Shown: positions 1-12,322 of the stretch, in pieces
Position numbering within the stretch: the stretch's first letter is position 1
How the letters are laid out: each line of letters opens with the position of its first letter
From: Sphingomonas sp. BT-65
Lineage (GTDB): Bacteria > Pseudomonadota > Alphaproteobacteria > Sphingomonadales > Sphingomonadaceae
Length of the DNA stretch: 64,000 nucleotides
Reading direction: 5' to 3'
NCBI RefSeq assembly: GCF_026107375.2
Contig: NZ_JAPCIA010000001.1
Coordinates: forward strand, 992,001-1,056,000
Notes under the pieces: model-generated
The model's database searches: none
Told to the model about the DNA's origin: nothing
What the model saw: only the letters and a program-made list of their open reading frames with translations
Program-made: the position numbers and the translations under genes

Positions 1-925
1 GCGGCAGTTGGAGATCGTACCAGATCCACTTGCCGTCGGGCGAGAAGAACTCGTGGCCGGCGATCTCCATGTTCATGACGCGCTTGTGGACCAGCTTCTT
101 GCCGGTGCCGTCGGTGCGCACGATCCAGATGCGGTCGATCTTGTGCCACGGCCCTTCGTGGCAATACATGATCTGGTTGGGGTCGGTGGGCGAGAACTGG
201 ACGTGGTTGAGCCAGTCCTTGTCCGACGCGACCACGACCTTGCGCGCTCCGGTCTTCACGTCGATCGTGAAGATCTCCATCGGGATGCCGGCCTCGAGCC
301 GCTCGTTCATCCGCACTTCCTTGGCCTCGGCGAAGGTCAGCGGCTTCCCGTCGGGGCCGAGCGCCTGATAGTTGGCCTGGCCGAACTGCTGGCGGTCCTG
401 CGGCTTGCGTTCGGTGCCGGGCTGGAGGGGCTTGTCGCTCGCCGCCCATTGGCCGAGCAGCAGCGTCTCGTCGGCATTGATCGAGCCGACCGTGCCGCGC
501 TCGACCTTGGCGATTTCGCGTACCTTGCCGGTGTCGATGTCGGCGGCGAAGATCGTCGATCCAGCCCCGGTGCGCTTTTGGAAATAGACCGAGCGGCTCT
601 TGCGGCCGGTGAAGAGGAGCTGCGCGCCGGGATCGCGGACAAGCGGGGTGACTTTCCAGCTCTTGAGATCGACTGCGGCGATGCCCTCGGGCACCGACAT
701 CACCATCTTGTCGCCCTGCGGCGTGTAGCTGTTCTGATGGAAATAGAGGCTGGCGCTGCCCGGCGCCTCGCTGATGCGCACCACGCGGCGGCGGGTGAGC
801 GGATCGACCCAGCTTTTGGGGCCCGGTTGCGGCGTGGCCGCCGTCGCGGATTCCTGCGCGAGTGCCGCGCCGGGTGACAAGGCAACCATAAGCAACAGGG
901 ATGCCAGCACCGCCCTTACCCGCAT
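1..925 (-). CDS. ogl: Oligogalacturonate lyase (PL22 type), 3' end outside window
   Basis: Reading the minus strand from the ATG at 923-925 gives 308 residues that run off the window edge, so only the N-terminal part is visible. The first about 24 residues form a signal peptide (MRVRAVLASLLLMVALSPG, then ALAQ). The mature part opens with the family signature: a WVDPLTRRRVVRISE segment, then a SLYFHQNSYTPQGDKMVMS segment at about residues 60-80, followed by beta-propeller blades (FFSPDGKWIWYD near the visible end). Enzymes of this family beta-eliminate short unsaturated galacturonides, the last step of pectin oligomer breakdown, usually in the periplasm when a signal peptide is present. The gene is divergent from the caspase-like gene, with 181 bp between the starts that should hold both promoters. 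A GAGAGG ribosome site precedes the ATG. Family assignment is confident; substrate range is not testable here. Confidence 0.85.
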   Translation of the reverse strand, partial: MRVRAVLASLLLMVALSPGAALAQESATAATPQPGPKSWVDPLTRRRVVRISEAPGSASLYFHQNSYTPQGDKMVMSVPEGIAAVDLKSWKVTPLVRDPGAQLLFTGRKSRSVYFQKRTGAGSTIFAADIDTGKVREIAKVERGTVGSINADETLLLGQWAASDKPLQPGTERKPQDRQQFGQANYQALGPDGKPLTFAEAKEVRMNERLEAGIPMEIFTIDVKTGARKVVVASDKDWLNHVQFSPTDPNQIMYCHEGPWHKIDRIWIVRTDGTGKKLVHKRVMNMEIAGHEFFSPDGKWIWYDLQLP

Positions 926-1106
926 GCGACCTCTCCTTGCCGATGTTCTACATATTGCAGCGATGGCCTATCATATGAGCCAACCTGTCTGACTGGCAAG
1001 CGATTCCAGCGCATCTTTTCACGCTCTTCGGACGTCGGGCTCACGTTCGCCTGACGGGCGCTGCGTACAAGCGCGGCGATCCGAATTTCACGCGAAGGAC
1101 CGCAGG

Positions 1107-1940
1107 ATGAATCGAGCATTGGTCGTGGGCATCGGCGATTATGGCCGGCTGATGCAGCCCCTGCCCGGCTGCGCGAACGATCGCCAGGGCTGGAGCGAGT
1201 TGCTTCGTGGCGCACTCGGCGCAACGGGGGATGCGCTGCGCGTCCGGGCCGATGCGCAAGCCACGAAGCTGACCCTGCTCAACGACCTGGCGTGGCTGCT
1301 CGACGATGTCCGGCCCGGCGATCAGCGCGTGTTCTTCTTCGCGGGGCACGGCGCGCGGCTGCGGCGCCGCGATCCGGTGACCGGCATCGCCGACGACGTG
1401 ATCGACGAGACGATCGTGGCCCATCCCGGCGCATCGGGCGACTATGAGAGCTTCATGCTGTTCGACGCCGATCTCGCGGCGATGATCGACCAGTCCGGCT
1501 TTCCGCCCTCGGCGCGGCTGACGCTGATCATGGACTCCTGTCACTCGGGCGGGATGATGCGCAAGATCCTCATGGAGGATGCGGACGTTCCCCTGCCGCG
1601 GTGCCTGATGATCCCGGAGGAGGACGAGTCCCCGAGCCGCGCGCCCGCCGCCGAACCGACGGTCCGCAGCTTCGGCAGCCTCGCGCGGGCGCAGGTCCAG
1701 GTGCAGCGGGTGATCCTGGCCGCGGCGCGCGCCGAACAGCCGGCGTGGGACGATCGCATGCCCAACGGGTTGCGGCACGGGGTGTTCTCCTACCACGCGC
1801 TGAACGCGCTGGCGGCGCAGCCCGCCATCTCCTTCAGCGACATGGTCGCCACGGTCGCGCCGCAGATCGCCGCGCGCTTTCCGCAAGTCCCCACCCTGCT
1901 TGGCGATTCTAGCAGATTTTCCAATCGCATGTTCAATTGA
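1107..1940 (+). CDS. Caspase-like (C14/metacaspase-type) cysteine peptidase
   Basis: This 277-residue protein has the p20-type caspase fold signature and no signal peptide, so it is probably cytoplasmic. The N-terminus (NRALVVGIGDY) is the first beta strand. The catalytic pair is visible: His81 in VFFFAGHGARL and Cys145 in LIMDSCHSGG. An acidic stretch between them (DDVIDETI, about residues 96-103) fits the S1 pocket of metacaspases and orthocaspases, which cut after Arg or Lys rather than Asp. No extra domain is present, so this is a compact p20-p10-only enzyme. Three small Gly-rich proteins and a Cys-rich protein follow on the same strand within 10-30 nt of each other. An AGGACCGCAGG sequence supports the ATG at 1107. 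The partner genes suggest that it processes them, which is inference. Confidence 0.85.
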   Translation: MNRALVVGIGDYGRLMQPLPGCANDRQGWSELLRGALGATGDALRVRADAQATKLTLLNDLAWLLDDVRPGDQRVFFFAGHGARLRRRDPVTGIADDVIDETIVAHPGASGDYESFMLFDADLAAMIDQSGFPPSARLTLIMDSCHSGGMMRKILMEDADVPLPRCLMIPEEDESPSRAPAAEPTVRSFGSLARAQVQVQRVILAAARAEQPAWDDRMPNGLRHGVFSYHALNALAAQPAISFSDMVATVAPQIAARFPQVPTLLGDSSRFSNRMFN

Positions 1941-1950
1941 GGAGGACGTT

Positions 1951-2205
1951 ATGAAGACCGATTTCTTCGACTGCCGATTCCGTTTCGAAGACGCCGACCT
2001 GACCGACATCCCGGCGTGCCGGTCGCGCATGATCGAGATCGTCAACGACCGCAATTTCGAGCAGCTGGTCAACGACCTCGCGGTCACCAGCAAGGCCGTG
2101 AAGGGCGGCCCCACCCCGCGCGGCGGCGGCGAGTGCGGCGCCCATGTTTCGGGGAATTCCGGCGGCGGCTGGTCCGTCGGCGGCGGCTGCTCCTGGCGCT
2201 TCTGA
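1951..2205 (+). CDS. Small Gly-rich protein 1 of the caspase locus (putative protease substrate)
   Basis: The protein has 84 residues and I do not recognise a family. It starts at the ATG directly after a strong ribosome site (GGAGGACG), 10 nt past the peptidase stop. Residues 1-50 are acidic and look folded or helical (FDCRFRFEDADLTDIPACR). Next comes a KGGPTPRGGGE linker at 51-61 and a Gly-rich tail with four aromatic residues ending CSWRF. The next gene encodes a protein with the same plan: a DLxDxxxCRxxMI block, an IxNDxxxxQLVxNL-like helix, the GPTPRGG linker and a WSVxG motif in the tail. The Arg at residue 57 followed by Gly-Gly is a plausible cut site for an Arg-specific caspase-like enzyme. 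There is no signal peptide or membrane segment. The gene is real by ribosome site, spacing and paralogy; its function is unknown. Confidence 0.8.
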   Translation: MKTDFFDCRFRFEDADLTDIPACRSRMIEIVNDRNFEQLVNDLAVTSKAVKGGPTPRGGGECGAHVSGNSGGGWSVGGGCSWRF

Positions 2206-2232
2206 TCAACCCAAGAGAACTGGAGACGAACA

Positions 2233-2478
2233 ATGGCTGACACCAGCTTTCAATTCATCGTGCCCGATTGCGACCTCGGCGACGTGGGCGAGTGCCGCCG
2301 CAAGATGATCGCGGCGATCCACGATCCCGCGCTCGACCAGGTGATCGACAATCTGCGCGTCGCCCAGATGGCCGCCGCGAGCGGACCCACGCCGCGCGGC
2401 GGCGAGGCGTCGGTCACTGGCGAAGCCAAGAGCAACGGCGACTGGTCGGTCAAGGGTGAGGTCAAGATCACCTGGTAA
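2233..2478 (+). CDS. Small Gly-rich protein 2 of the caspase locus (paralogue of protein 1)
   Basis: The protein has 81 residues. It lines up with the preceding gene over its whole length: an FxFxVPDCDLGDVGECRRKM block against FRFEDADLTDIPACRSRM, then a DPALDQVIDNLRV helix, then GPTPRGG at residues 51-57, then a tail with GDWSVKGEVKITW. The tail alternates polar and hydrophobic residues and could form beta strands. The shared linker and the WSVxG motif are the best-conserved parts, which points to selection on the junction and on the tail. The gene lies 27 nt downstream of its paralogue, with GAGACGAACA before the ATG as a modest ribosome site. No known domain is recognised. A role as substrate or ligand of the caspase-like enzyme is inferred from position and from the Arg-Gly-Gly junction. 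Confidence 0.78.
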   Translation: MADTSFQFIVPDCDLGDVGECRRKMIAAIHDPALDQVIDNLRVAQMAAASGPTPRGGEASVTGEAKSNGDWSVKGEVKITW

Positions 2479-2494
2479 CCGAGGGAGAAGGCAG

Positions 2495-2725
2495 ATGACC
2501 GAACGTCAGGACGCGTTCAACTTCACCGTCACCATCAACGACGTCGTGCTGGACCAGGAAACGATCGCCCGGATCGAGGAACGGCTCGGCAAGATGCTGC
2601 TGGAAGAGCTCGCCAAGCTCGACGGCAAAGGCGATCTGGTCGCGAAACCGCTGCCGACGGCGCGCTCGATCGGCGGCGGCCTTGACGGCGACCACACCGC
2701 CGGAATGTCGATCGGCCGCGGATGA
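2495..2725 (+). CDS. Small Gly-rich protein 3 of the caspase locus (diverged relative)
   Basis: The protein has 76 residues. An upstream in-frame start is possible, but the ATG at 2495 has a GAGGGAGAAGGCAG ribosome site and gives a protein of the same size as the two neighbours. Its plan is similar though the sequence is diverged: a beta-rich start (FNFTVTINDVVLD), an amphipathic helix (QETIARIEERLGKMLLEELAKL), a LPTARSIGGG junction at about 53-62, and a Gly-rich tail ending SIGRG. The junction again has Pro-Thr then an Arg a few residues before glycines, so it may be a variant of the TPRGG site. The stop codon overlaps the start of the next gene (ATGA), which indicates translational coupling. 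No family is recognised. Confidence 0.75.
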   Translation: MTERQDAFNFTVTINDVVLDQETIARIEERLGKMLLEELAKLDGKGDLVAKPLPTARSIGGGLDGDHTAGMSIGRG

Positions 2726-3102
2726 CCAAAGGCCGCGCCCTTTGCCCGAGTGCTCCCGCAGGGGCAAAGGCGCGGCTGATCGGCGTAGTCACCAGCGCGG
2801 GACAAGTCGCCTTTCTGGGCACCCCCCGTCCGGTCGACCACGCCTTTCTCGACGCGGCGGACGAGGGCCGTGAAGCGGAGCGCAGATTCCGCTTCACGGC
2901 CCCTTGCGCCGAACGCGGCTGCGCGAACTGGGACCAAGGCGGCTGCGCACTGCCGGGGCGCATCGCAGCCGACCTCGCGAGCGCCGCGCCGTTCGCCGCG
3001 GACTCGCCGGCGTGCGGCATCCGCGACCATTGCGTCTGGTTCAGCCAGACCGGCAGCAACGCCTGCGCGACCTGCCGGCTCGTGGTGACCAGGGCCGGCT
3101 GA
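2722..3102 (+). CDS. Cys-rich protein of the caspase locus, unknown function
   Basis: The protein has 126 residues, starts inside the stop of the preceding gene (ATGA) and ends the operon. It has eight cysteines: C8, then C62, C67 and C75 in PCAERGCANWDQGGC, then C98, C104, C115 and C118 in a CGIRDHCVWF and ACATC segment. The last seven could bind zinc or an iron-sulfur cluster. The spacing (C-x4-C-x7-C and C-x5-C-x10-C-x2-C) matches no family I can name. There is no signal peptide. The N-terminal 60 residues resemble a small beta domain (ARLIGVVTSAGQVAFLGTPRPV). The coupled start and operon position tie it to the peptidase and the Gly-rich proteins. It could be a maturation factor, a redox sensor or another substrate; the sequence alone does not decide. 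Confidence 0.7.
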   Translation: MTKGRALCPSAPAGAKARLIGVVTSAGQVAFLGTPRPVDHAFLDAADEGREAERRFRFTAPCAERGCANWDQGGCALPGRIAADLASAAPFAADSPACGIRDHCVWFSQTGSNACATCRLVVTRAG

Positions 3103-3111
3103 CGCCGGCCC
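3092..3111 (+). terminator. Perfect 8-bp hairpin over the stop of the caspase operon
   Basis: GGGCCGGC at 3092-3099 pairs with GCCGGCCC at 3104-3111 around a TGAC loop that contains the stop codon of the Cys-rich gene. Only a short T run follows a few bases later, so this is a weak intrinsic terminator or a 3'-end stabilising hairpin between convergent genes. Confidence 0.4.
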
Positions 3112-3142
3112 ACTCCCCTTTCGATGCGAGCGATCGCCGGCT

Positions 3143-4975
3143 TCAGCTCGAGCGCGGCGGGCGATCGAGCAGGCCGAGCGAGACCAGCCTCTCGTTCCAG
3201 AACAGACGCTTGCCCAGCGGCGAGAGCAGCTCGTCGCGCGTCGCGCGCCAGCGGCGGATGAGCGAATCCTGTTCGAGCGGATGGCCGAAATCGGCATAGA
3301 CCTTGGCCTTGTCGAGCTCGCCCAGCTTGGCCCAGTGCATCGAATAGGGAATCCCTGCCGCATCCAGCGCCGCACGCACGGCCAATGCCCCTTTCTCCAG
3401 GGTCTGCTCCAGCGCGAGAAGTGCTCGCAGGATTTCCTCGGGGTTAGGCGTGTCGGCGTCGAGTTTCCCCGCGGCGAGCTTGCAGATGAGCGGCGACAGC
3501 CCGTCGATCTCGATCACGGCATTGTGGTCGAACCGGGTGAAGGCCAGCGTCCCCGCCGGCCTGGCGACGAACCGCAACGAGAAGACGAAGGAGGGATCGA
3601 GCTGGGCGACCGCCTTGCAAATGACGGGAACGGCGGCGGCGACGCGATCGAGTGGAATCGCATAGGATGCGTTGTAGAGTGCACCGGGGACATCGCCGGT
3701 GATTTCGTCGGCGTGGAGCCCGCTCCAGTAATAGCCCCTGCGCTTCGGATCCTCGGGATCGAAATCGCTCACATTGGGCTCGAATTTACCCTTCGCACGA
3801 TAATAGGCGAACACCGAGTCAGGGCCGCCGAGCAGCATGCGCAGCGTACGGATGATCGACCGAGGGGGATCGCCGGGGTCAAACAGGCCATCCAGCTCCG
3901 GCTGCTCGTCGTGGTGCGTCGCGACAAAGCGGGTGAGCCACTCGCCGAGCTGCCCGATCGCGTCTGACGGCCGGACGATGCCGGCATCACCCGGCGGCAG
4001 CAGCGGCGATGTTTCGCGCGGGAAATACATCATGTGCGTCGCTTCGTCATCGAACGGCGCATGGGGATTGAGCGTCACCTCGTAGAATTCCGGCGCAGTC
4101 TTGCAGCGCAAGCGCGCGGCCGCCTTGTCGAACTCGCCCCTGCCGATCTCCTCCAGCCACGCCGGCTCGAGGCGCGCCGTGCGCTGCATCAGCGCGAGGA
4201 GCTGGTTCGGAACGAGCTCGATCGCCATGCCGTTGACGATACCCATGCCGCCAAGGTGGATCAGCGCGTCCTCGAACTGATCATCGTCGCGCACCACCCG
4301 GAGGTTGGCGCCGGGGATGGCGAGCCGGTCGAGACCCGCCTGACTGAGCACCGGGCAAGATTTGCGCTCGATCCAGACATGCTCCCGATCCCCAGTGATC
4401 AGGTGCATGCCCAGCACCATGTCCTGGATGCCGCCAAAGCCGAGGCGCGAGCCGTGGCTGGCCGTGCCCGCCCCGCCCGCAATCGTCGCGCCGAGATGCG
4501 TGCCGCTGGTCCTGATCGTCAGGTTGTGGCGTTCAGCCCAGCGCACGAGCTCGCGCAGCCGCGTCCCTCCGCTGGTGAGCGCGATCCGGTCCACGGGCAC
4601 GCAGCAGCCCGGGTTCCATTCCGCATCGCCCAGCGTTCCCGTTCCCGCGAGACCGTCGCACTGGAGCTGCGACACGGCGGTCCCGATCAGTCCGCTGAAG
4701 CTCCAGCCGCGCCCGGTCATCCCCGCGGCGAACGAGCGGGGTTGCAGCGGGGGCTTGGGGTCGAGCATCTTCGCCAGCTTGCCGAGATGCTCGAACAGCG
4801 GCCCAGCTGTCGCGGCGAAGCGCTCGAGCCCGGTCATGCCGCCGCAATCAGCGGCGTGGAAACGCCCCAGGCTTTCGATGGTCATCGACGGGATGGGATT
4901 GGGATCGACGGTTCCGCCGAGCGTCAGGTGATAGTTGGACCAGGCGGCAAGACTGTCATAGCTGATGGACGGCAT
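3143..4975 (-). CDS. FAD-linked oxidoreductase of the aldonolactone oxidase type
   Basis: This 610-residue flavoprotein belongs to the vanillyl-alcohol-oxidase superfamily. The FAD-binding PCMH part holds the phosphate loop TSGTHLGATIAGGAGTASHG at about residues 157-175. The C-terminus carries a HWAK segment at about residue 545, like the HWGK motif of L-gulono- and D-arabinono-lactone oxidases, where it shapes the active site. The roughly 120 residues before the FAD domain are longer than usual and include a Cys pair (NPGCCVPVD). No signal peptide is evident. The enzyme would oxidise a sugar lactone or a similar polyol to a keto or enediol product with oxygen or another acceptor. It is convergent with the caspase operon and lies downstream of a decayed lipoprotein gene on the same strand. 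Family is firm; the substrate cannot be read from sequence. Confidence 0.75.
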   Translation of the reverse strand: MPSISYDSLAAWSNYHLTLGGTVDPNPIPSMTIESLGRFHAADCGGMTGLERFAATAGPLFEHLGKLAKMLDPKPPLQPRSFAAGMTGRGWSFSGLIGTAVSQLQCDGLAGTGTLGDAEWNPGCCVPVDRIALTSGGTRLRELVRWAERHNLTIRTSGTHLGATIAGGAGTASHGSRLGFGGIQDMVLGMHLITGDREHVWIERKSCPVLSQAGLDRLAIPGANLRVVRDDDQFEDALIHLGGMGIVNGMAIELVPNQLLALMQRTARLEPAWLEEIGRGEFDKAAARLRCKTAPEFYEVTLNPHAPFDDEATHMMYFPRETSPLLPPGDAGIVRPSDAIGQLGEWLTRFVATHHDEQPELDGLFDPGDPPRSIIRTLRMLLGGPDSVFAYYRAKGKFEPNVSDFDPEDPKRRGYYWSGLHADEITGDVPGALYNASYAIPLDRVAAAVPVICKAVAQLDPSFVFSLRFVARPAGTLAFTRFDHNAVIEIDGLSPLICKLAAGKLDADTPNPEEILRALLALEQTLEKGALAVRAALDAAGIPYSMHWAKLGELDKAKVYADFGHPLEQDSLIRRWRATRDELLSPLGKRLFWNERLVSLGLLDRPPRSS

Positions 4976-5037
4976 GCGATCCTCCAGTGGGTTCGGTTGG
5001 GCGGGTGATCAGCGCTTGTGGCGCCTCAGGGAAGCAA

Positions 5038-5380
5038 TCAGCGCCGGCGGCGCTGCAGCGGCTCGATCTCGCTGAGTTCGATCCATTTCGCGGTCCGCGC
5101 CTTGGCGTCGCCCCAACGGATTCAGGCACGCCATGAAACCGGAGTGGAACACCGCCTCGGGCCGGGGACCGCGGGGATGCGGGTTGTCAACGCCGTGCCG
5201 GGAAGCGGATCGTCGTAGCCGGCGTCGCGCTGCAGCTCGTCGAACAGCGGGGTCGCGTGATAGATCTGAATGTTCTCCGCCAGCAGATTGCCGCAGGTGA
5301 ACGTCATCGGCTTCGCGCCGAGCTTGATGCACCCGCCCAGCGCGAGCGCCAGTGGCAGAACCAGTATCGCGCATCTCCAT
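5038..5380 (-). pseudogene. Frameshifted lipoprotein gene remnant
   Basis: No single frame gives a sensible protein, but three frames joined in order do. From the ATG at 5378-5380 a few codons (MEMR) lead into a second frame with a lipoprotein signal (ILVLPLALALGGC, then IKLGAKPMTFTCGNLLAEN) and a stretch ending about GYDDPLPGTALTTRIP. A first-frame segment follows (EAVFHSGFMACLNPLG). A third frame finishes with DAKARTAKWIELSEIEPLQ and a TGA at 5038-5040. At least three shifts within 340 bp are needed, while neighbouring genes are intact. The product would have been a small outer-membrane or periplasmic lipoprotein co-transcribed with the FAD enzyme. Clustered sequencing errors are the alternative explanation. 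Confidence 0.55.
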
Positions 5381-5505
5381 TCTCCCTCGCCCGGAATCGG
5401 CCCCTCGATTGCCGCACGAAGCCTGGCCGCAACTGCATCCGAAAAGCGTGAAAACCATCTTTGACGGCGGATTCAATCTGATAGACTGAATTCGGGGGAA
5501 AGATC

Positions 5506-7278
5506 ATGGAGCGCTACCGCCTCAATCTGGTGGGTCCGTTCGGCTTGTTCGCGCCGGACGGGCGCCGCATCGACATCAGCAGCCAGAAGGGCATGGCGCT
5601 GATCGCGCTGGTGGTGGTCTCGCCCGGCGGGGTGCGATCGCGCCGCAAGCTCGAGGCGATGCTGTGGGGCTCGCGCGGCGCCAAGCAGGCGCAGGACAGC
5701 CTGCGGCGCGAGCTCTCCAACTTGCGCAAGCAGCTGTGCGAGAACGGCGCCGGCGACCTGCTGATCCCGGAGACCAAGCGCATCGCGCTGGCGATCGACC
5801 GCATCGAGGTCGACATCTTCGCGCTCGGGCTCGGTCCGCCGGACGCGCGCATGCGCTACGCGGGCGACTTCCTCGAAGGGATCGACCTGCCCGATTGCGA
5901 CGAGTTCGAGGAGTGGCTGCGCGAGGAGCGCGAGCGGGTGCGCGACATGATCGAGCTGCTCGTCCCGGAGTCACCGACTCCCCTGCCCGCCTCATCGGAG
6001 GTGTTCGGCGGCGCGGTGCCGGGCGCCGAGGAGACACTCAGGCGTGCGCCACGGCTTCCCCCCAAGCCATCCGTCGCGGTGCTGCCGTTCGCGGTGCCCG
6101 GCGACGCCGCACAGAGCTGGCTGGGCGCGGGCCTCGCGGACGAAGTCAGCGTCTGCCTGAGCGCGTTTCCGCAGCTGTTCATCGTGTCGAGCAACGCCGC
6201 GCGCACGCTCGCCGATGCCGGGCTGGCGCGCACCGAGATCGCGCACCGGCTCGGCGTCCGCTACCTGCTCGAGGGGAGCATCCTGCGCGACGGGGAGCGG
6301 CTCAGGGTGTCGGTCGCGCTGGTCGAGGGACGCAGCGGCGAGCAGTTCTGGGCCGAATCCTTCGTCGGCCAGTCCGACGCCAGCTTCACCCTGCAGCAGG
6401 AGATCGCGGCCCGCATCGCGCCGCAGATCTGGACCAAGGTCGATCACGCCGAACGCCAGCGCAGCCTGCGCCTGACCGGGCCGGTTTCGGGCGACTATGA
6501 ACGCTATTGGCGCGCCAACGCGCTCTCGCGCAGCTGGGAGCGGGAGGCGATCGCGGAGGCGATCAGCCTGTCGATGCAGCTGGTCGAGAACGACCCGACC
6601 TGCCCCTGGGCGACCTCGCTCGCCGCCTATTGCAACAGCATCGCGTGGATGCTGCACCACAGCCCCGATCGCGAGGCGGTGCTGCGCCGGGCGATCCAGA
6701 ACTATCAGGCGGCGATGCGCTTCGGCGCCGACAATGTCGAGGCGCTGGGCTATTGCGCCGGCACGCTGGTCAATATCGGCGGCGATATCGACATGGCGGA
6801 CCGCATCATCGGCCGCGCGTTGCATCTGTTGCCGGCGCATCAGCCGGCCTTGTTCTGGGGCGGCTGGGTCGACGTGATCCGCGGCGACCCGGCGCGCGCC
6901 GCCGACCGCTTCGAGCTCGCGCTGCGCATCAATCCAGTGAGCGGTGCGCTTGGGCAGACGCTGACGGGAATCGGCTTCGCCATGCTCCAGCAGGGCAAGC
7001 CGGAGGAAGCGCTACGCCTGCTGATCGAGGCCGAGCGCGCCGCGCCGGGCTTTCCGCCGGCCCAGCTCGGCCTGTGCGTCGCGGCGCAGCTGGCGGGCAA
7101 GACCGACCTCGCGCATGTCTATGCGGTTCCCCTGCTCGCGCGCGGCGGGCTGGCGCTCGTCAACATGCTGCGCCGTCCCGAAGACGTGCAGATGTTCGCG
7201 CGGGCGCTGTGCGAGGCGGCCGGAGATGCCGGCGACGGATCGGTCGTGGCGTCGCTGAATACGGGCGAGATCAGGTGA
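5506..7278 (+). CDS. Winged-helix transcriptional regulator with TolB-like and TPR domains
   Basis: The 590-residue protein starts at the ATG after GGGGGAAAGATC. Residues 1-110 form an OmpR/SARP-like winged helix of the type in bacterial transcriptional activator proteins (LNLVGPFGLFAPDGR, LWGSRGAKQAQDSLRRELSNLRKQL). After a Pro-rich linker, residues about 185-310 match the domain found with adenylate cyclases and TolB-like regulators (PSVAVLPFAV, LGAGLADEVSVCLS, YLLEGSILRDGERLRV). Residues about 330-560 are TPR-like helical repeats. It has no receiver domain, so activity is presumably set by ligand or protein contact at the C-terminal half. It is divergent from the FAD enzyme and its broken lipoprotein neighbour and may control them or the caspase operon. 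It converges with the nitroreductase-like gene, overlapping it by 8 bp. Confidence 0.8.
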   Translation: MERYRLNLVGPFGLFAPDGRRIDISSQKGMALIALVVVSPGGVRSRRKLEAMLWGSRGAKQAQDSLRRELSNLRKQLCENGAGDLLIPETKRIALAIDRIEVDIFALGLGPPDARMRYAGDFLEGIDLPDCDEFEEWLREERERVRDMIELLVPESPTPLPASSEVFGGAVPGAEETLRRAPRLPPKPSVAVLPFAVPGDAAQSWLGAGLADEVSVCLSAFPQLFIVSSNAARTLADAGLARTEIAHRLGVRYLLEGSILRDGERLRVSVALVEGRSGEQFWAESFVGQSDASFTLQQEIAARIAPQIWTKVDHAERQRSLRLTGPVSGDYERYWRANALSRSWEREAIAEAISLSMQLVENDPTCPWATSLAAYCNSIAWMLHHSPDREAVLRRAIQNYQAAMRFGADNVEALGYCAGTLVNIGGDIDMADRIIGRALHLLPAHQPALFWGGWVDVIRGDPARAADRFELALRINPVSGALGQTLTGIGFAMLQQGKPEEALRLLIEAERAAPGFPPAQLGLCVAAQLAGKTDLAHVYAVPLLARGGLALVNMLRRPEDVQMFARALCEAAGDAGDGSVVASLNTGEIR

Positions 7279-8239
7279 GACCGACGCGGATCAGCTGATG
7301 TGGTGCCCAACGGGCGCGTCGCGCGGTGGCGGGACACGGGCGCGGTCCGATGCGGAACACGCTGATCAGCGCCTGCCCCGCCGGCATGCGATGATCGGCC
7401 GCAAGCAGCCGGTTGGTCTCGTCCCAGTCCGCCAGGACCGACATCGGACATGCCGCGAGCCCGTGGCGCTCGATCGCGAGCCATGCGCGATAGAACGCGC
7501 GGCCAGTGTCGATCGCCGACTCGTCCGCGGGCCGGACGAACAGTGCGATCGCGGCGGCACTGGCGGTCTTGGCGCGTTCAGAGAGAAGCGTGCGGGCGAG
7601 ACCGATGCGGTCGAGCGGCTGGAACAGCGCACCGAGCACGAGCCCCGCGGCACGTGCCTCGATCGGGCTCAGTGCCATCGCTTCAGCGTTGAGGCCGTCA
7701 TGCGCCCAGTTCGGATGCGCTCGCGTCAGGCGCATCCATTCGCGCAGTTCACGCCGGTGAGCGTCATCGCGCAGGAAATGCATCGATGCGTCGTCGCCGA
7801 ACGATGCGACATGCGCGATCGCCTCGCGGCCGCGCACCAGCATGAGGTCGGCGCATTCGGCTTCGAGCCGGTCGAGTGCGGATGGGTCGGGCAATGGCGC
7901 AAAGCTTCCACGCCAGGTCGCACGGCTCTCCACCTCGGGCAGGGCGGCCGGGGTATCAGGTGTCGCGCAGATCGCCGCCAATGCGCCCTCGGCCTGCCCG
8001 ACCTGCCCCGCCCATCCCTCGGCCGCGAGTGCGAGCAGCGTGCCCTCCAGCGCAGCACCGTGCGAGATCGCGATGTCGCGGCCGCTCGGATCGGCGACCG
8101 GCAAGCGGATCGCGGGCGTGTCGAGCAGCAGGATCCGCCCCTCGCCGTCCAGCGACCAGCGCGTCGGCTGGACGTTGTGGACGCTCGGCGCGAGGCTGGC
8201 GCGGGCGACGATGCGGGTGAGCAGGTCCGCTTCAATCAT
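7271..8239 (-). CDS. Acg-like nitroreductase-fold protein
   Basis: The protein has 322 residues from the ATG at 8237-8239; a longer in-frame extension upstream lacks a ribosome site and would cover the end of the preceding gene. The N-terminal motif ARASLAPSVHNVQPTRW is the FMN-phosphate-binding segment of the nitroreductase superfamily, here of the Acg or Rv3131 type, which are duplicated folds in one chain. Other typical parts are DPSGRDIAISHGAALEG near residue 60 and a C-terminal WLAIERHGLAACPMSVLADW segment. Acg proteins bind FMN but often lack a flexible lid and sequester rather than turn over flavin. It is the last gene of a five-gene operon that includes a ThiF-like enzyme. In mycobacterial Rv1355c-type proteins, as I recall them, a ThiF domain and this domain are fused, which supports a functional link. 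Confidence 0.75.
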   Translation of the reverse strand: MIEADLLTRIVARASLAPSVHNVQPTRWSLDGEGRILLLDTPAIRLPVADPSGRDIAISHGAALEGTLLALAAEGWAGQVGQAEGALAAICATPDTPAALPEVESRATWRGSFAPLPDPSALDRLEAECADLMLVRGREAIAHVASFGDDASMHFLRDDAHRRELREWMRLTRAHPNWAHDGLNAEAMALSPIEARAAGLVLGALFQPLDRIGLARTLLSERAKTASAAAIALFVRPADESAIDTGRAFYRAWLAIERHGLAACPMSVLADWDETNRLLAADHRMPAGQALISVFRIGPRPCPATARRARWAPHQLIRVGLT

Positions 8240-9347
8240 CGAGCTGTTTCCCGAAGATGGCGAGGTCGTGGAGCGGACGCGCGCCGATCTTCTCGGCCTG
8301 GCGCAGGCTCGCGCCGTTGACGTCGGCGATCCAGGTGCCGCCGACGCTGGCATAGCCAGCCTGTTTCAGCGCGGTCGCGAGCCGGAACAGCATCGCGCCG
8401 TTGAGCCCGCGATTCTGGTGCGCCGGGTCGACCGAATAGAGCAGGATCACCGCGCGCGTGCGCTTCAGGCAGTGGCGCAGGAAATGGAACGGTGTGGCAA
8501 TGCCGAGCCGCGCGCGGGTGCCGCGGATGAACGGGTTCATGTCGGGCACGCAGAGCAGCGCGCCGACCGGAGCACCGCGATGATGGACGATCACCGGCAG
8601 GCGGTAGTCCATGATCCACATCATCTCGCCCGCCTGGAACGCGAACTCGGCCGGGGTGAGCGGCACGAACATCGGGTTGCGGTCGAACCCGGCATTGAGC
8701 ACCAGCCGCGCATCCTCCATCCGCGCGGCGAAGGTGCGGCGCGTCACACCCAGCCACTGATAGTCGGGATCGTCGAGGATCGCGCGCTGCTTCGGGCCGA
8801 GCAGCATCGCTGGGTCGAGCCGGTCGAGATCATAGACGAAGGTGGTCATGTCGAAGACCGCGCGATAGCCGTTCGCCTCGAGCAGCCGCGGCAGATAGGG
8901 CGGCGACCACATCATGTCGGTATAGGGCGCGGCGTCGAACCCGGTGGTGACCACGCCGGCCATCTGCATCGCGGTGAGGTTGAAATTGCCGGCGATCTCG
9001 ATCGCGCCGCGTTCCCGGCCCCAGCCTTCAGCCGCCCCGAGCAAGGCCGCCGCCACCTCCGCATCGTCGGCGCAGTCGAAGAAGCCGAACTGCGCCCGGC
9101 GCGTGCCGTGGCGCGCGTTCGAGGCGTCGTGGATCGAGGCGACGATGCGGCCGACCGGCGCGCCGTCGCGGTGCGCGGTGAACAGCTCGAACCGGCCATG
9201 CCCCTCGGTCACCAGCGGGTTGCGTGCCGGATCGAGAACGCGGTCGAGATCGGCCCGCATCGGCGAGACATAGGGGCTCGACGCCGGATAGATGCGGAAC
9301 GGAACGTCGAAGGCGGCGGCGCGGTCGCCGGTGCGCAAGGCGATCAT
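8232..9347 (-). CDS. GNAT-fold N-acyltransferase-like protein (YghO-like)
   Basis: The protein has 371 residues and its ATG overlaps the previous stop by 4 nt (ATGA). The order of motifs fits the widespread family of about 370 residues that includes E. coli YghO: DPARNPLV near the start, VGRIVASI followed by FGFFDC about residues 75-95, AAEGWGRERG then a GNFNLTAMQMAGVV strand, a SPPYLPRLLEANGY segment, and a C-terminal acetyl-CoA-type fold with VDPAHQNRGLNGAML near residue 320. The last part resembles the Q/R-x-x-G-x-G/A loop that binds the pyrophosphate of acyl-CoA. Substrate is unknown. As part of the ThiF/Acg operon it may acylate the same small molecule or peptide that the E1-like enzyme activates. 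Its stop overlaps the start of the nitroreductase-like gene by 8 nt, so translation is coupled. Confidence 0.7.
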   Translation of the reverse strand: MIALRTGDRAAAFDVPFRIYPASSPYVSPMRADLDRVLDPARNPLVTEGHGRFELFTAHRDGAPVGRIVASIHDASNARHGTRRAQFGFFDCADDAEVAAALLGAAEGWGRERGAIEIAGNFNLTAMQMAGVVTTGFDAAPYTDMMWSPPYLPRLLEANGYRAVFDMTTFVYDLDRLDPAMLLGPKQRAILDDPDYQWLGVTRRTFAARMEDARLVLNAGFDRNPMFVPLTPAEFAFQAGEMMWIMDYRLPVIVHHRGAPVGALLCVPDMNPFIRGTRARLGIATPFHFLRHCLKRTRAVILLYSVDPAHQNRGLNGAMLFRLATALKQAGYASVGGTWIADVNGASLRQAEKIGARPLHDLAIFGKQLDD

Positions 9348-10513
9348 GAGCGTCCCTTTCCGGCAGTCGCGGCGAGCAACCGCTGCGCCAGCGCGAGGTC
9401 GGTCTCGGCGGAGAGATCGGCCGAAAGCCCCGGCAGGTTGATCGCGAGCAGCTCCAGCGGCGATTGGCACAGCGCGAGGAGGTGCGTGGCGTTGTGCGTC
9501 TCGAACAGCGCGGCGACGGCCTCGGCCAGCATCTCGTCGCGCGCCATTCCCCATGGTGCATCGCGACGGCGCAGCACGGGATGCTCCGTGACCAGCGTGG
9601 CGAGCGCATCGGCGTCGGCAACGTCGAGCAGTGCGTCCGACAGGATCGTGCCGCTGCCGAGCGTCTCGCTGGCGGTGATCGCCTGCAGCAGCGCTTCGCG
9701 ATTCCCGGGCGGCGTCGCGGCCAGTGCGCGGCGCAGCGCGAGGCCAGCATCTTGCGAGGCGACTGCCTCGGCACTGATCGTCACCAGCAGCAATGCGGCG
9801 AGCACCACGAGACCGGATTGGACCCCGCTCAATCCGGACGCGCCGCTTGCGAGGCCGACGCCAGCGAGCGCCGCGACTGCAGCAAGAAAGACGAGCCACG
9901 CGATCCGCTCGCTGACGCGCCATGCCCCGATGGTCAGGCCGACCCAGCCGAGGAGCATCACCGCGAGCGGCGAGAGGCGCGCCGGCATGTCGAGCGGCAG
10001 CTCGCGAAAATCGGTGAGCGCTGCCGGGATCAGCGCGACCTGGCACAGCGCGAGCGCGATCACCGCGCGCCGCTCGGCGCGATCGAGCCCGCGCAACCCG
10101 GCGAGCGCGGTGACGACGCCGAGCGTCATGCCGAGCCCGATATGCGCGCCGAGCGCGAGCGTGGCCCAGCGCGCGTTGGCCAGGCTGGCGACCAGCACCG
10201 CGATCGTGCCGGCGAGGATGAGCAGCTTGACGCCGAGCGGCGCGTGCCGCCGGATCAGCCCCTCGACCAGGAGTAGCACGGCGAGCGGGATCCCCGCCGC
10301 CGCGATCGCCGTCACGGTGTTGAACCCGGCGCCGGCGCCGGCCCAGAACAGGCCGCGGCTGGCATACATCACGGCGACCAGCCCGAGCGCCAAGGTCCAG
10401 CGCCAGCGCATCGCCCCCTGCGCATCGCGGCGGCGCACGGCGAGCATCAGGGCGAGCACGCCGGCAAGGCCGAGCGCGTTGACCAGGCTGTCGGTGATCG
10501 CCTCGGCGGTCAT
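9344..10513 (-). CDS. Orphan multi-pass membrane protein with cytosolic tail
   Basis: The protein has 389 residues, starts with an ATGA overlap after the ThiF gene and ends with an ATGA overlap into the GNAT gene. Roughly residues 8-245 are a bundle of about eight hydrophobic segments (for example LVNALGLAGVLALMLAV and SGLVVLAALLLVTI). The layout, with a short N-terminus and evenly spaced helices, resembles the seven-helix sensor modules of membrane histidine kinases. The remaining 140 residues are soluble and mostly helical (LRRALAATPPGNREALLQAI, then LLALCQSPLELLAI), but no kinase, HAMP, GGDEF or phosphatase motif is present. I do not recognise the tail. In context it may anchor the operon's enzymes at the membrane, sense their product or move it. 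It has no similarity to a transporter family that I can name. Confidence 0.65.
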   Translation of the reverse strand: MTAEAITDSLVNALGLAGVLALMLAVRRRDAQGAMRWRWTLALGLVAVMYASRGLFWAGAGAGFNTVTAIAAAGIPLAVLLLVEGLIRRHAPLGVKLLILAGTIAVLVASLANARWATLALGAHIGLGMTLGVVTALAGLRGLDRAERRAVIALALCQVALIPAALTDFRELPLDMPARLSPLAVMLLGWVGLTIGAWRVSERIAWLVFLAAVAALAGVGLASGASGLSGVQSGLVVLAALLLVTISAEAVASQDAGLALRRALAATPPGNREALLQAITASETLGSGTILSDALLDVADADALATLVTEHPVLRRRDAPWGMARDEMLAEAVAALFETHNATHLLALCQSPLELLAINLPGLSADLSAETDLALAQRLLAATAGKGRS

Positions 10514-11385
10514 CCCGCGATCATCCGTTGCAGCGCGCGGCGTACCAGGGGCCGCAGCACCGCGGCGACCGGACCGGGCAGCGGGCGCTCGACGTGCGGC
10601 TTGTGCACGTTGAGGAACCAGCCACGGCAATCGGTGCCGCTCGGCCGCCCGATCGCGAGGTGGATGGCTTCATAGGCCATCAGCATGCCCGTCGTGATCA
10701 CCATCGGCGCGAACGACATCCGGCTGCGGCGCCCCGCCGCGACCTCGCCCGCGAGGTCGAGATCGATGTGATGCCGCGAGCTGCTGTTGAGCATGACATG
10801 CTCGGCCTCGCGCAGGAATGCCTCCGCGCGATCGGCATCGGTCACCGCCTCGATCGGCTTGCCGCGCGTCGGATAGCGCAGGCGCTCCTCGGGCATCGGA
10901 TCGCCCGGGCGCGTCACATAGACCGAGGGCAGCGGCGAGGCATAAGCGTCGATCACCGTCCCGCCGCTCGCCCGCGCGCCGCGATAGAGGCGCAGGCCCG
11001 CCACCAGGTCGTCGGTGCCGTTGACCACGATCTTCGCCGTGCTGAGCACGCGGTCGAGATGATCGGACCAGTCGCGGTACAGCACCTCGATCTGCGCATC
11101 CGGGTTGATGCGCAGGCACTGGTCGCGGCTCGCCTCGGCCTTGTGCCGGCCAACGCTGTCGAGCGTCGCGAACAGCTGGCGGTTGAGGTTCGAAACCTCG
11201 AACTCGTCGAGATCCGCGATCACCAGCCGCGAGAAGCCCGCACGAACCAGCGCCATCAGGCACGCGCCGCCCATCCCGCCGACCCCGCACACGAACACCG
11301 GCGTTGTGCGCAGCATCGCCTGCTCGGTCTCGCTCACAAAGCCGATGTTGCGGGTGGTCATCTCGGCATAGTCAAACACGGCCAT
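10510..11385 (-). CDS. ThiF/E1-like adenylyltransferase
   Basis: The protein has 291 residues. The Rossmann nucleotide loop VCGVGGMGG lies at residues 32-40, followed by IADLDEFEVSNLNRQ at 56-70, in which the Asp binds ribose and Arg69 touches phosphate, and by GRHKAE with Lys82. A GTDD segment near residue 123 fits the Asp that holds magnesium. These are the marks of E1, MoeB and ThiF enzymes that adenylate a C-terminal carboxylate. The two CxxC zinc pairs of MoeB and ThiF are missing and no obvious transfer cysteine is seen, so it may release the AMP-activated group directly to an amine or thiol. No ThiS-like or ubiquitin-like gene is nearby. It sits between a membrane acetyltransferase-like protein and an orphan membrane protein, with overlaps at both ends. 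Confidence 0.8.
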   Translation of the reverse strand: MAVFDYAEMTTRNIGFVSETEQAMLRTTPVFVCGVGGMGGACLMALVRAGFSRLVIADLDEFEVSNLNRQLFATLDSVGRHKAEASRDQCLRINPDAQIEVLYRDWSDHLDRVLSTAKIVVNGTDDLVAGLRLYRGARASGGTVIDAYASPLPSVYVTRPGDPMPEERLRYPTRGKPIEAVTDADRAEAFLREAEHVMLNSSSRHHIDLDLAGEVAAGRRSRMSFAPMVITTGMLMAYEAIHLAIGRPSGTDCRGWFLNVHKPHVERPLPGPVAAVLRPLVRRALQRMIAG

Positions 11386-12322
11386 TCTCCCGCCACGGCC
11401 GCAGCCGCCCCCATTGGCGCGTGGGGCTCAGCCAGTAGATCATCGGTAGCACCGCGCGCTGGACGAGCAGGAACAGCGCAGCGCCGAGCAAGGCCGGCAG
11501 CGAATTCCGCGGCACGTCCTGCAGCAGATAGCGGCGCGCGGCGGCGAGGTTCATCTCGCCGACCTGCAGCACGTCGTCGCCGCGGTCATAGTCGAGCGTC
11601 GCGGCGCAGAAGTCGTTGAAGGCCGGGTCGCGATGCTTGGGCGCGTCGTCGAGCCGCTTCTTGAGATGGTCCGAGCCGCCGCGATAGGCATCCTCGATCA
11701 CGAACCGCGCCTCGTCGAACCGTGCGTCTTCGCTCACCCCGAATACGGCACGATGGCGCTGCATGATCTGGCGGGCGAGCGCGAGGTGATCGAAGCGGCG
11801 GACCGCGCCGGCCGGCGATGGGAAGACGTTGCTGAAGCCCTCGCAGACCAGCCCCACCACGGCAGGAACCTGAGTCACGCTCGAGATCCAGAATGGGCGC
11901 AGCTGGTTGCGCACGAACAGCAGCAGTGTCGTCATGCCGTAGAGCGCCCAGGAAAACCCCTTCCCGCGCGCTTCGGGATCGATCAGCACCAGGCCGAGAT
12001 GCGTGACGGTCTCGAGCCGGCCGCGATAGTTCACATCGAGCAGCGCGAGCGCGTTGAATGCGACTGGGCGGCCCGAACCGCGTTCGCGGATCAGCATGAT
12101 CACCGCGCGGTCGAGTGCGCCCGAATCCTCTCGAAACACGCCATAGTCGAGCTGCCCGGCGGGTAGCGAGCGCGCCGCGATCTCGCGCAGCACTGCGGCA
12201 AGGGCGGCCCGGTCTTCCACCGGCATCCAGCGACCCGGCCGTTCATAGACATGCGCCACATGGCTGGCGGACAGCTTCACCGACAGGTTCAGGGAGGGCT
12301 GAAACAGCGCCTTCAGCCACAT
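11372..12322 (-). CDS. GNAT-like protein with C-terminal membrane segment, first gene of the ThiF operon
   Basis: The protein has 316 residues. The N-terminal two thirds look like an acetyltransferase fold: VAFNALALLDVNYRGR then THLGLVLIDPEARGKGFSWALYG, where PEARGKG resembles the acyl-CoA phosphate loop at about residue 120. Near the C-terminus a hydrophobic stretch (SLPALLGAALFLLVQRAVLPMIYWL) would place it at the inner membrane. A second weak hydrophobic patch (MTTLLLFVRNQLRPFW) lies in the enzyme part. The gene opens the five-gene operon and its end overlaps the ThiF start by 14 nt. The 117 bp between it and the upstream glycosyltransferase gene is less GC-rich and includes CATATAAGGCGCAAG, so it may hold the operon promoter. 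The reaction is unknown; acylation of the substrate of the ThiF or Acg proteins is a guess. Confidence 0.65.
   Translation of the reverse strand: MWLKALFQPSLNLSVKLSASHVAHVYERPGRWMPVEDRAALAAVLREIAARSLPAGQLDYGVFREDSGALDRAVIMLIRERGSGRPVAFNALALLDVNYRGRLETVTHLGLVLIDPEARGKGFSWALYGMTTLLLFVRNQLRPFWISSVTQVPAVVGLVCEGFSNVFPSPAGAVRRFDHLALARQIMQRHRAVFGVSEDARFDEARFVIEDAYRGGSDHLKKRLDDAPKHRDPAFNDFCAATLDYDRGDDVLQVGEMNLAAARRYLLQDVPRNSLPALLGAALFLLVQRAVLPMIYWLSPTRQWGRLRPWRENGRV

Follow-up and report, generated by a model that had tools for sequence, protein, structure and literature searches.

A five-gene operon of Sphingomonas sp. BT-65 with a caspase-like peptidase, three small proteins and an eight-cysteine protein: a candidate peptide-processing unit

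Which proteins are cut by the caspase-like peptidases of bacteria? To our knowledge, the native substrates of these enzymes are mostly unreported, and we know of no orthocaspase with dedicated substrates encoded in its own operon. The question is raised by a locus of Sphingomonas sp. BT-65, in which a gene for a peptidase of the C14 family is followed by three genes for small proteins, here named A, B and C, and by a gene for a protein with eight cysteines, here named D. The window analysed, to which all coordinates refer unless another locus is named, is a stretch of 64,000 nt of this genome (NZ_JAPCIA010000001.1, positions 992,001-1,056,000 of the forward strand). In the reading to which we give about an even chance, these five genes form a self-contained peptide-processing unit, in which the peptidase would cut A, B and C at an arginine kept in all three, D would act on the precursor, and the tails of the small proteins would be released.

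The five-gene operon and its second copy

The operon starts with the peptidase gene (1107..1940, on the plus strand like the four genes that follow; 277 residues), continues with the genes for A (1951..2205; 84 residues), B (2233..2478; 81 residues) and C (2495..2725; 76 residues), and ends with the gene for D (2722..3102; 126 residues). The successive spacings are 10, 27, 16 and -4 nt, the last one corresponding to an ATGA overlap between C and D. A preliminary description of this DNA had claimed a compact operon of five genes, the last four of these sizes, with gaps below 30 nt and with His81 and Cys145 in the peptidase, all of which was borne out by the open reading frames, by Pfam and by a codon-usage gene caller trained on the 28 long open reading frames of the window. 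Each of the five frames is called coding by this program. Besides, the proportion of nonsynonymous differences (pN) is lower than that of synonymous ones (pS) over the whole length of all five genes, the difference being weak for A (0.39 versus 0.43). Artefactual frames, as may arise in G+C-rich DNA, were ruled out by the coding score and by the existence of an orthologous operon.

This orthologous operon belongs to Sphingomonas sp. ERG5, the one confirmed relative among 26 pattern matches obtained when the genomes of 84,980 species were scanned with the peptidase, a scan that detects close relatives only. The ERG5 locus (L043) carries all five genes in identical order, including the identical ATGA overlap between C and D. 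At the protein level, identity between the two genomes is 65% for the peptidase, 42% for A (L043:6845-7102 in ERG5), 46% for B (L043:7126-7371) and 59% for C (L043:7388-7612), and the ERG5 orthologue of D (L043:7609-8016) was recognised by a protein identity of 59%, a full-length alignment and the presence of all eight cysteines. The sole DNA alignment between the two loci runs from position 1107 of the window, which is the start codon of the peptidase, to position 3040, within D, with 67% identity, and in a translated comparison just short scattered matches lie outside the operon among the matches listed. Since the same order recurs in ERG5 and since the DNA alignment extends from the peptidase start into D, the five-gene set is more than a chance arrangement, and the operon is real. 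The co-occurrence that the preliminary description had proposed to look for in other genomes, namely C14 genes beside small proteins with a TPRGG-like site, was thereby found in ERG5.

The surroundings of the two operons differ: in ERG5, an acetoacetate decarboxylase-like gene is found before the operon, and genes for a fatty-acid desaturase and for a phosphonate-type binding protein, an import component, are found further on. A recent transfer was considered and rejected, given the extent of DNA divergence between the copies and an operon G+C content (68.0%) near that of the window (69.1%).

Regarding the distribution of the peptidase, a match was obtained in 8 of the 151 genomes of a same-genus sample, the window's own genome included, the other seven showing E values between 1.6e-9 and 5.6e-6 and frames of 418-1016 residues. 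In a family sample that overlaps the former, 53 of the 347 genomes match, again including the own one, and the other matches, which lie in open frames of 441-1108 residues with a best E value of 9.4e-19, were rejected as orthologues. A profile built from the two peptidase sequences matches 11 of the 210 genomes of a class sample, own genome included. No plasmid match was obtained with A, B or C in tblastn searches, and none of the pattern stretches recovered from viral contigs (66 with the peptidase pair, 20 with the D profile, 7 with the D protein of Spirosoma) was confirmed. The idea that any short lone caspase has partners of this kind was also rejected, as the 272-residue caspase of genome G741, one of these 11 class-sample matches, has no small genes alongside it in a stretch that ends at the contig end.

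The peptidase, the small proteins and the predicted cut site

The peptidase matches the Pfam family Peptidase_C14 (PF00656; E 7.3e-16, 59 bits against a cut-off of 21.4) over residues 2-264, and it consists of this lone short catalytic domain, with no other recognised domain. Its His81, which lies in an AGHG motif, and its Cys145, in SCHS, are both kept in the ERG5 orthologue and align with the catalytic dyad of metacaspases in the sequence matches to solved structures. By sequence, the nearest solved relatives are metacaspases from yeast, plant and trypanosome, which we take to be yeast metacaspase-1, AtMC4 and trypanosome MCA2, respectively. In addition, the peptidase is matched by the caspase model of PADLOC (E 7.5e-19), which was run on the five operon proteins only, and it scores 35.9 bits with the NCBIfam model of EACC1-associated caspases (NF047832), far below the cut-off of 140.

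Orthocaspases, which are prokaryotic caspase homologues with a His-Cys dyad, are described as cutting after positively charged residues (PMC6426788). In AtMC4, the S1 pocket that holds a lysine is reported to involve Asp137, Ser84, Asp352 and Ser350 (PMC7206013). By direct alignment, Asp137 of AtMC4 corresponds to Asp143 of the peptidase. Asp352 corresponds to Asp216, a position read via weak p10 alignments with yeast metacaspase-1 only, through the T-S-A-D motif, whose Asp and Ser are residues 352 and 350 of AtMC4. Asp143 and Asp216 are both kept in ERG5. As both acidic residues of the AtMC4 pocket are matched by Asp, it is plausible that the peptidase cuts after arginine, a point that sequence alone does not settle.

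The three small proteins are built in two parts. In A, a leader of residues 1-57 ends with PTPR and is followed by a Gly-rich tail of 27 residues with two cysteines; in B, the leader (residues 1-55) also ends with PTPR and precedes a tail of 26 residues; in C, a leader of residues 1-57 ends with PLPTAR and is followed by a Gly-rich tail of 19 residues. The arginine of a P-[TA]-[PA]-R site is present between the N-terminal part and the Gly-rich tail in six of the six small proteins of the two genomes, the site being PTPR in the window and PTAR in ERG5 for A, PTPR and PAPR for B, and PTAR in both for C, in which the whole PLPTAR stretch is identical. The predicted P1 residues, after which cleavage would occur, are Arg57 of A (codon 2119..2121, plus strand), at a PTPR/GGG junction, Arg55 of B (2395..2397, plus strand), at a PTPR/GGE junction, and Arg57 of C (2663..2665, plus strand), at a PTAR/SIG junction. 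In the alignment of the four A and B sequences, the arginine of the site is one of two invariant basic columns, Arg22 and Arg55 in B numbering.

A and B are paralogues, as the preliminary description had stated: their local alignment score of 137 stands far above that of 1000 shuffles (mean 24.5, standard deviation 4.8, maximum 51). The claim that the third protein shares their plan holds as far as the leader, the P-T-x-R site and the Gly-rich tail are concerned, but homology of C to A and B is not supported. The A-C score of 39 is mildly above shuffles (mean 23.0, standard deviation 4.2, maximum 45 in 1000 shuffles), the B-C score of 24 shows no excess over a shuffled mean of 23.7, and a profile comparison of A/B with C gives a probability of 0.3% and aligns nine columns around P-T-x-R only, so that C was rejected as a third paralogue. 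The leader of C shows a weak profile match (probability 11.8%) to small genes that adjoin D in three other records. None of A, B, C and D comes near a Pfam cut-off, and no precursor family of Pfam or NCBIfam matches the small proteins, in which what is seen is the leader/tail plan and the kept site.

Further indications come from a model of B, which is of low confidence (mean predicted local distance difference test, pLDDT, of 59.5, with four sequences in the alignment). This model shows a strand and two helices, a loop with the lowest confidence at residues 48-52, and two strands at residues 56-65 and 71-80 that start straight after Arg55, thereby placing the predicted cut at the boundary between the loop and a beta-hairpin. 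In the same line, the two sets of alternate residues in each strand of the B tail differ in mean hydropathy by about 4 units, in the window as in ERG5, and those of the A tail by 2.6-4.0 units, values for which there is no shuffled control. The tail of B is also better conserved than its leader (62% versus 38% identity), a pattern likewise reported for the tails of processed proteins of the FxSxx type (PMC7159879).

Protein D, its relatives and the genomic surroundings

The cysteines of D lie at positions 8, 62, 67, 75, 98, 104, 115 and 118, and all eight are invariant in 18 D sequences from Pseudomonadota, Bacteroidota, Actinomycetota and Cyanobacteriota. The family has no name in the libraries searched, and its members are hypothetical or unannotated in the annotated records seen. 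When ten proteins of the D family and its neighbourhoods were compared with NCBIfam, the only match was a sub-cut-off one of a D protein to a zinc ribbon (E 0.051). D profiles match 10 of 296 genomes of the order sample, 4 of 337 of the class sample and 6 of 299 of the phylum sample, which share part of their genomes and include the own one where sampled, as well as 2 of 101 and 4 of 109 genomes of two further families. Three D proteins match 6, 7 and 9 plasmid records, which are largely the same, and one D protein matches a single phage-labelled record.

In order to describe the neighbours of D, a set of 22 D loci was considered. It leaves aside L090, where a decayed D is preceded by a gene of 45 residues, L050-L053 (regions L059-L062) and L093, whose weak matches are unlike intact D, and repeat copies. 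In 20 of the 22 loci, D has a same-strand neighbour of at most 165 residues no more than 170 nt away, 16 of these neighbours being identified by the gene caller, L068 and L091 by the annotation of the record, L071 by reading, and L134. With the caller alone and a limit of 150 nt, such a neighbour is present for 16 of 21 D loci versus 60 of 215 (28%) other genes of the same loci (Fisher p 2e-5, a value that is too small because several of the D loci are close kin).

Several of these neighbours resemble peptide precursors. Leaders of the VSGG or VAGG type are found next to D in related genomes of the sphingomonad family and in Spirosoma, where a small gene lies beside two NHLP export genes, and in the Nostoc locus (L091) an annotated precursor of the NHLP family of ribosomally synthesised and post-translationally modified peptides (RiPPs) is located 167 nt from D. 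Some D neighbourhoods are annotated as RiPP or bacteriocin-export regions. In four related genomes (L054-L057), D and one or two small leader-type genes occur at a similar place, close to genes which, named by eye from their sequence, presumably encode an FAD-dependent oxidoreductase (L-aspartate oxidase-like) and an alpha/beta-hydrolase-like protein. On a Polymorphobacter plasmid (L071, 5001-6953), an unannotated D is followed by a small gene of 83 residues, with a radical SAM gene on the opposite strand. In L134 (MT836289.1; GenBank 'Bacteriophage sp.', 74% G+C), a small gene precedes D; its other genes, which by eye we take to encode MarR- and TetR-like proteins and an ABC ATPase, look bacterial and more precisely actinobacterial, and this locus was therefore counted as a D locus and not as a phage system. 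As a side observation, three Streptomyces plasmid loci (L088, L089 and L090) show the same succession of a response regulator, a helix-turn-helix protein, a short gene whose product has a terminal Cys, and then D (decayed in L090), an order that may represent a peptide-signalling set. In Agrobacterium vitis, the small gene is separated by about 1.8 kb and one intervening gene from a divergent CHAT-TPR gene, a proximity that may be due to chance.

The preliminary description had suggested that the Cys-rich protein helps or modifies the small proteins. Such a helper role gains weight because the relatives of D adjoin small leader-type genes, some of them in annotated RiPP or export settings; what does not extend to the other loci is the link with the caspase. 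Among 12 genomes tested, 11 with D and one (G176) with a weak D match, seven contain a C14 peptidase of any kind, but only in the window genome and in ERG5 does it lie beside D. Strong matches to A and B (E 1e-37 or better) are likewise confined to these two among 14 D-bearing genomes, the others giving E 0.019 or worse. As the peptidase and A/B occur together in both cases, while D is accompanied elsewhere by other small genes, these observations fit a scheme in which A and B are partners of the peptidase, and D is a partner of precursors generally. Since the other D genes do not have this caspase next to them, the scheme appears to be RiPP-like, with the peptidase as a maturation enzyme that can be exchanged.

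Around the operon itself, a divergent minus-strand gene (2-925) lies on the left, and a convergent minus-strand gene (3143-4975) with a Pfam FAD-binding domain lies on the right. The hairpin said to close the operon does exist, as a perfect inverted repeat with an 8-bp stem and a 4-nt loop (3092..3111, plus strand), but it spans the stop codon of D and the terminator prediction found 0 terminators, so that it does not qualify as a clear terminator; an Rfam search of positions 1-9000 of the window gave no match. Beyond the minus-strand oxidoreductase gene, the next long plus-strand gene (5506-7278) encodes a regulator-like protein with TPR repeats and a sub-cut-off match to the DNA-binding domain Trans_reg_C. 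Further on, five tightly packed minus-strand genes (7271-12322) encode a nitroreductase-family protein, a GNAT-family protein, a membrane-like protein with no Pfam match, a ThiF/E1-family protein and a second protein with no Pfam match, a set that recalls small-molecule or peptide modification operons. Pfam was applied to ten flanking genes, seven from the window and three from ERG5, and the remaining neighbours were judged by their first residues.

Weighing the processing scheme

In the proposed scheme, D would act on the precursor before the cut, by binding the leader or by modifying or carrying the tail, and its eight cysteines could hold a metal or an iron-sulphur centre. The peptidase would then cut A, B and C after the arginine of P-[TA]-[PA]-R, where the leader meets the Gly-rich tail, which would free tails of 17 (C of ERG5) to 28 residues (A of ERG5), predicted to form amphipathic beta-hairpins in B and probably in A. 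The freed peptides might act as a signal or as an antagonistic peptide. Among these steps, we infer that the best supported one is the single cut after the kept arginine that frees the short tails. As for the destination of the tails, a secreted antagonistic or signalling peptide and an internal membrane-active effector both fit.

Several observations weigh against this scheme. The operon is known from two copies only, no further copy having been found in the samples searched, and the D gene of ERG5 was missed by the codon-usage gene caller. In the peptidase, Ser84 and Ser350 of the AtMC4 pocket are replaced by Ala79 and Trp214, the latter being placed via weak alignment. Conservation of the tail over the leader is clear for B alone: in A, identity is 44% for the tail and 40% for the leader, with a pN of 0.35 exceeding a pS of 0.28 in the tail, and in C it is the leader that shows the higher identity (61% versus 53% for the tail). 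The model of D is poor (pLDDT 39, from two sequences), and the best sequence match of D to a solved structure has an E value of 1.1. Pfam scanning of the ten flanking genes revealed nothing recognisable as an exporter, a modifying enzyme or an immunity gene, with the possible exception of the nitroreductase-GNAT-ThiF group, which lies about 4 kb from the operon on the opposite strand, nor was any RiPP-modifying enzyme recognised by Pfam or NCBIfam among the operon genes themselves. Finally, locus L073 has a D without small neighbour, and in L058 (6160-7180, minus strand) D is preceded by a protein of 205 residues, above the small-gene limit. The end of this protein is weakly like the A/B tails: among 2000 shuffles, the tail-only score was reached by 46 for B of the window, 10 for B of ERG5 and 8 for A of the window, and the whole-protein score by 327, 62 and 1241, respectively. 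The idea of dedicated substrates put forward in the preliminary description is thus favoured by the arginine, by the restriction of A and B to genomes with this peptidase and by the two pocket aspartates, and it is held back by a pairing that rests on two operons and by the pocket serines.

Part of the same evidence could be read as a caspase-triggered death or anti-phage unit, in which A, B and C would be dormant effectors, cut by a peptidase activated under stress and assembling as hairpins in the cell's own membrane in a gasdermin-like way. The PADLOC match, the alternating hydropathy of the A and B tails and a sporadic presence, as neither the 150 other same-genus genomes nor the 347-genome family sample gave a match that looks orthologous, would all suit such a unit. 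We nevertheless hold it to be unlikely, considering that the peptidase carries no fused sensor domain, that the Pfam-scanned flanking genes include no recognised defence gene, that the relatives of D adjoin leader-type genes, and that a tail with as much Gly as that of A is unusual for a membrane hairpin. Another alternative is a RiPP-like pathway in which D would modify or carry the peptides, while the peptidase would only be a regulator or would confer resistance by degrading precursor that has not been modified. In favour of this, what stays constant across the wider family is D, without C14 peptidase alongside in the other D loci read, and several of its neighbours have Gly-Gly-type leaders (VSGG, VAGG), which would be cut by another kind of peptidase. 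The arginine kept in six of six proteins at the leader/tail boundary, where a caspase-type enzyme would mature the precursor rather than degrade it, makes this explanation distinctly improbable in our view. Even less probable, indeed hardly to be expected, is that the small proteins are pseudo-substrate inhibitors whose arginine would occupy the active site uncut and hold the peptidase inactive. A precedent is AtMC4, in which Lys225 of the enzyme itself is reported to sit in the S1 pocket and to block activity (PMC7206013). For such a role, three different inhibitors and D in addition would be oddly many, and the conservation of the B tail would be left unexplained.

The peptide-processing reading, to come back to it, has partial counterparts among known systems. 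Craspase (TPR-CHAT) with Csx30 and the bacterial gasdermins also combine a caspase-fold protease with a dedicated cut partner, but these systems are RNA-guided or death-linked and are not known to contain leader-type small proteins or D, and A, B and C (76-84 residues) have no Pfam match that would place them among gasdermins. NHLP-type RiPP clusters rely on a C39-type peptidase where the operon has a caspase; the latter also differs by the absence of any recognised modifying enzyme or exporter and by a P-[TA]-[PA]-R site instead of Gly-Gly. What is common to both is a leader followed by a short tail (PMC2887384), and relatives of D adjoin such a precursor and NHLP exporters. The FxSxx-COOH-type peptide-processing systems, which form part of actinobacterial conflict systems, are described as pairing the gene of a peptidase with that of a small protein, from which cleavage frees a C-terminal peptide that is better conserved than the rest; a modifying enzyme is present in some of them (PMC7159879, and Haft and Basu 2011 as cited there). 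According to the same source, they use a zincin metallopeptidase, often with a radical-SAM enzyme, on proteins with an FxSxx, RxD or acidic tail, and are linked to ternary systems of the VMAP or FtsH kind (PMC7159879), whereas the enzyme of the operon is caspase-like and is accompanied by three precursors and by an eight-cysteine protein. The operon falls outside this group, with its C14 peptidase and with no VMAP/FtsH ternary gene among the Pfam-scanned flanks. A likeness within the same peptidase fold family is the pair formed by AtMC4 and PROPEP1, in which Pep1 is produced from the small protein by metacaspase cleavage after Arg69; this system is eukaryotic and Ca2+-regulated, it involves a linker domain and no operon, and its peptide acts via a plant receptor (PMC7206013). 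A literature search returned no title describing the operon or D among the matches listed, which is weak evidence of absence, as it covers titles only and most subscription papers were outside reach.

A broader claim, which we consider tentative and on balance rather doubtful, is that the operon represents a new class of bacterial peptides, in which an Arg-specific metacaspase would free amphipathic beta-hairpin peptides from three dedicated precursors, as a bacterial counterpart of the metacaspase-PROPEP1 pair, D being the hallmark of a wider maturation family of at least four phyla where precursor and peptidase are exchanged while D stays. Whatever the class, candidate substrates and their exact predicted cut sites share one operon with the peptidase, which makes the substrate question testable with three small proteins. 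Besides, D offers a sequence marker by which related peptide loci may be found even where they could escape tools that rely on known RiPP enzymes or leaders.

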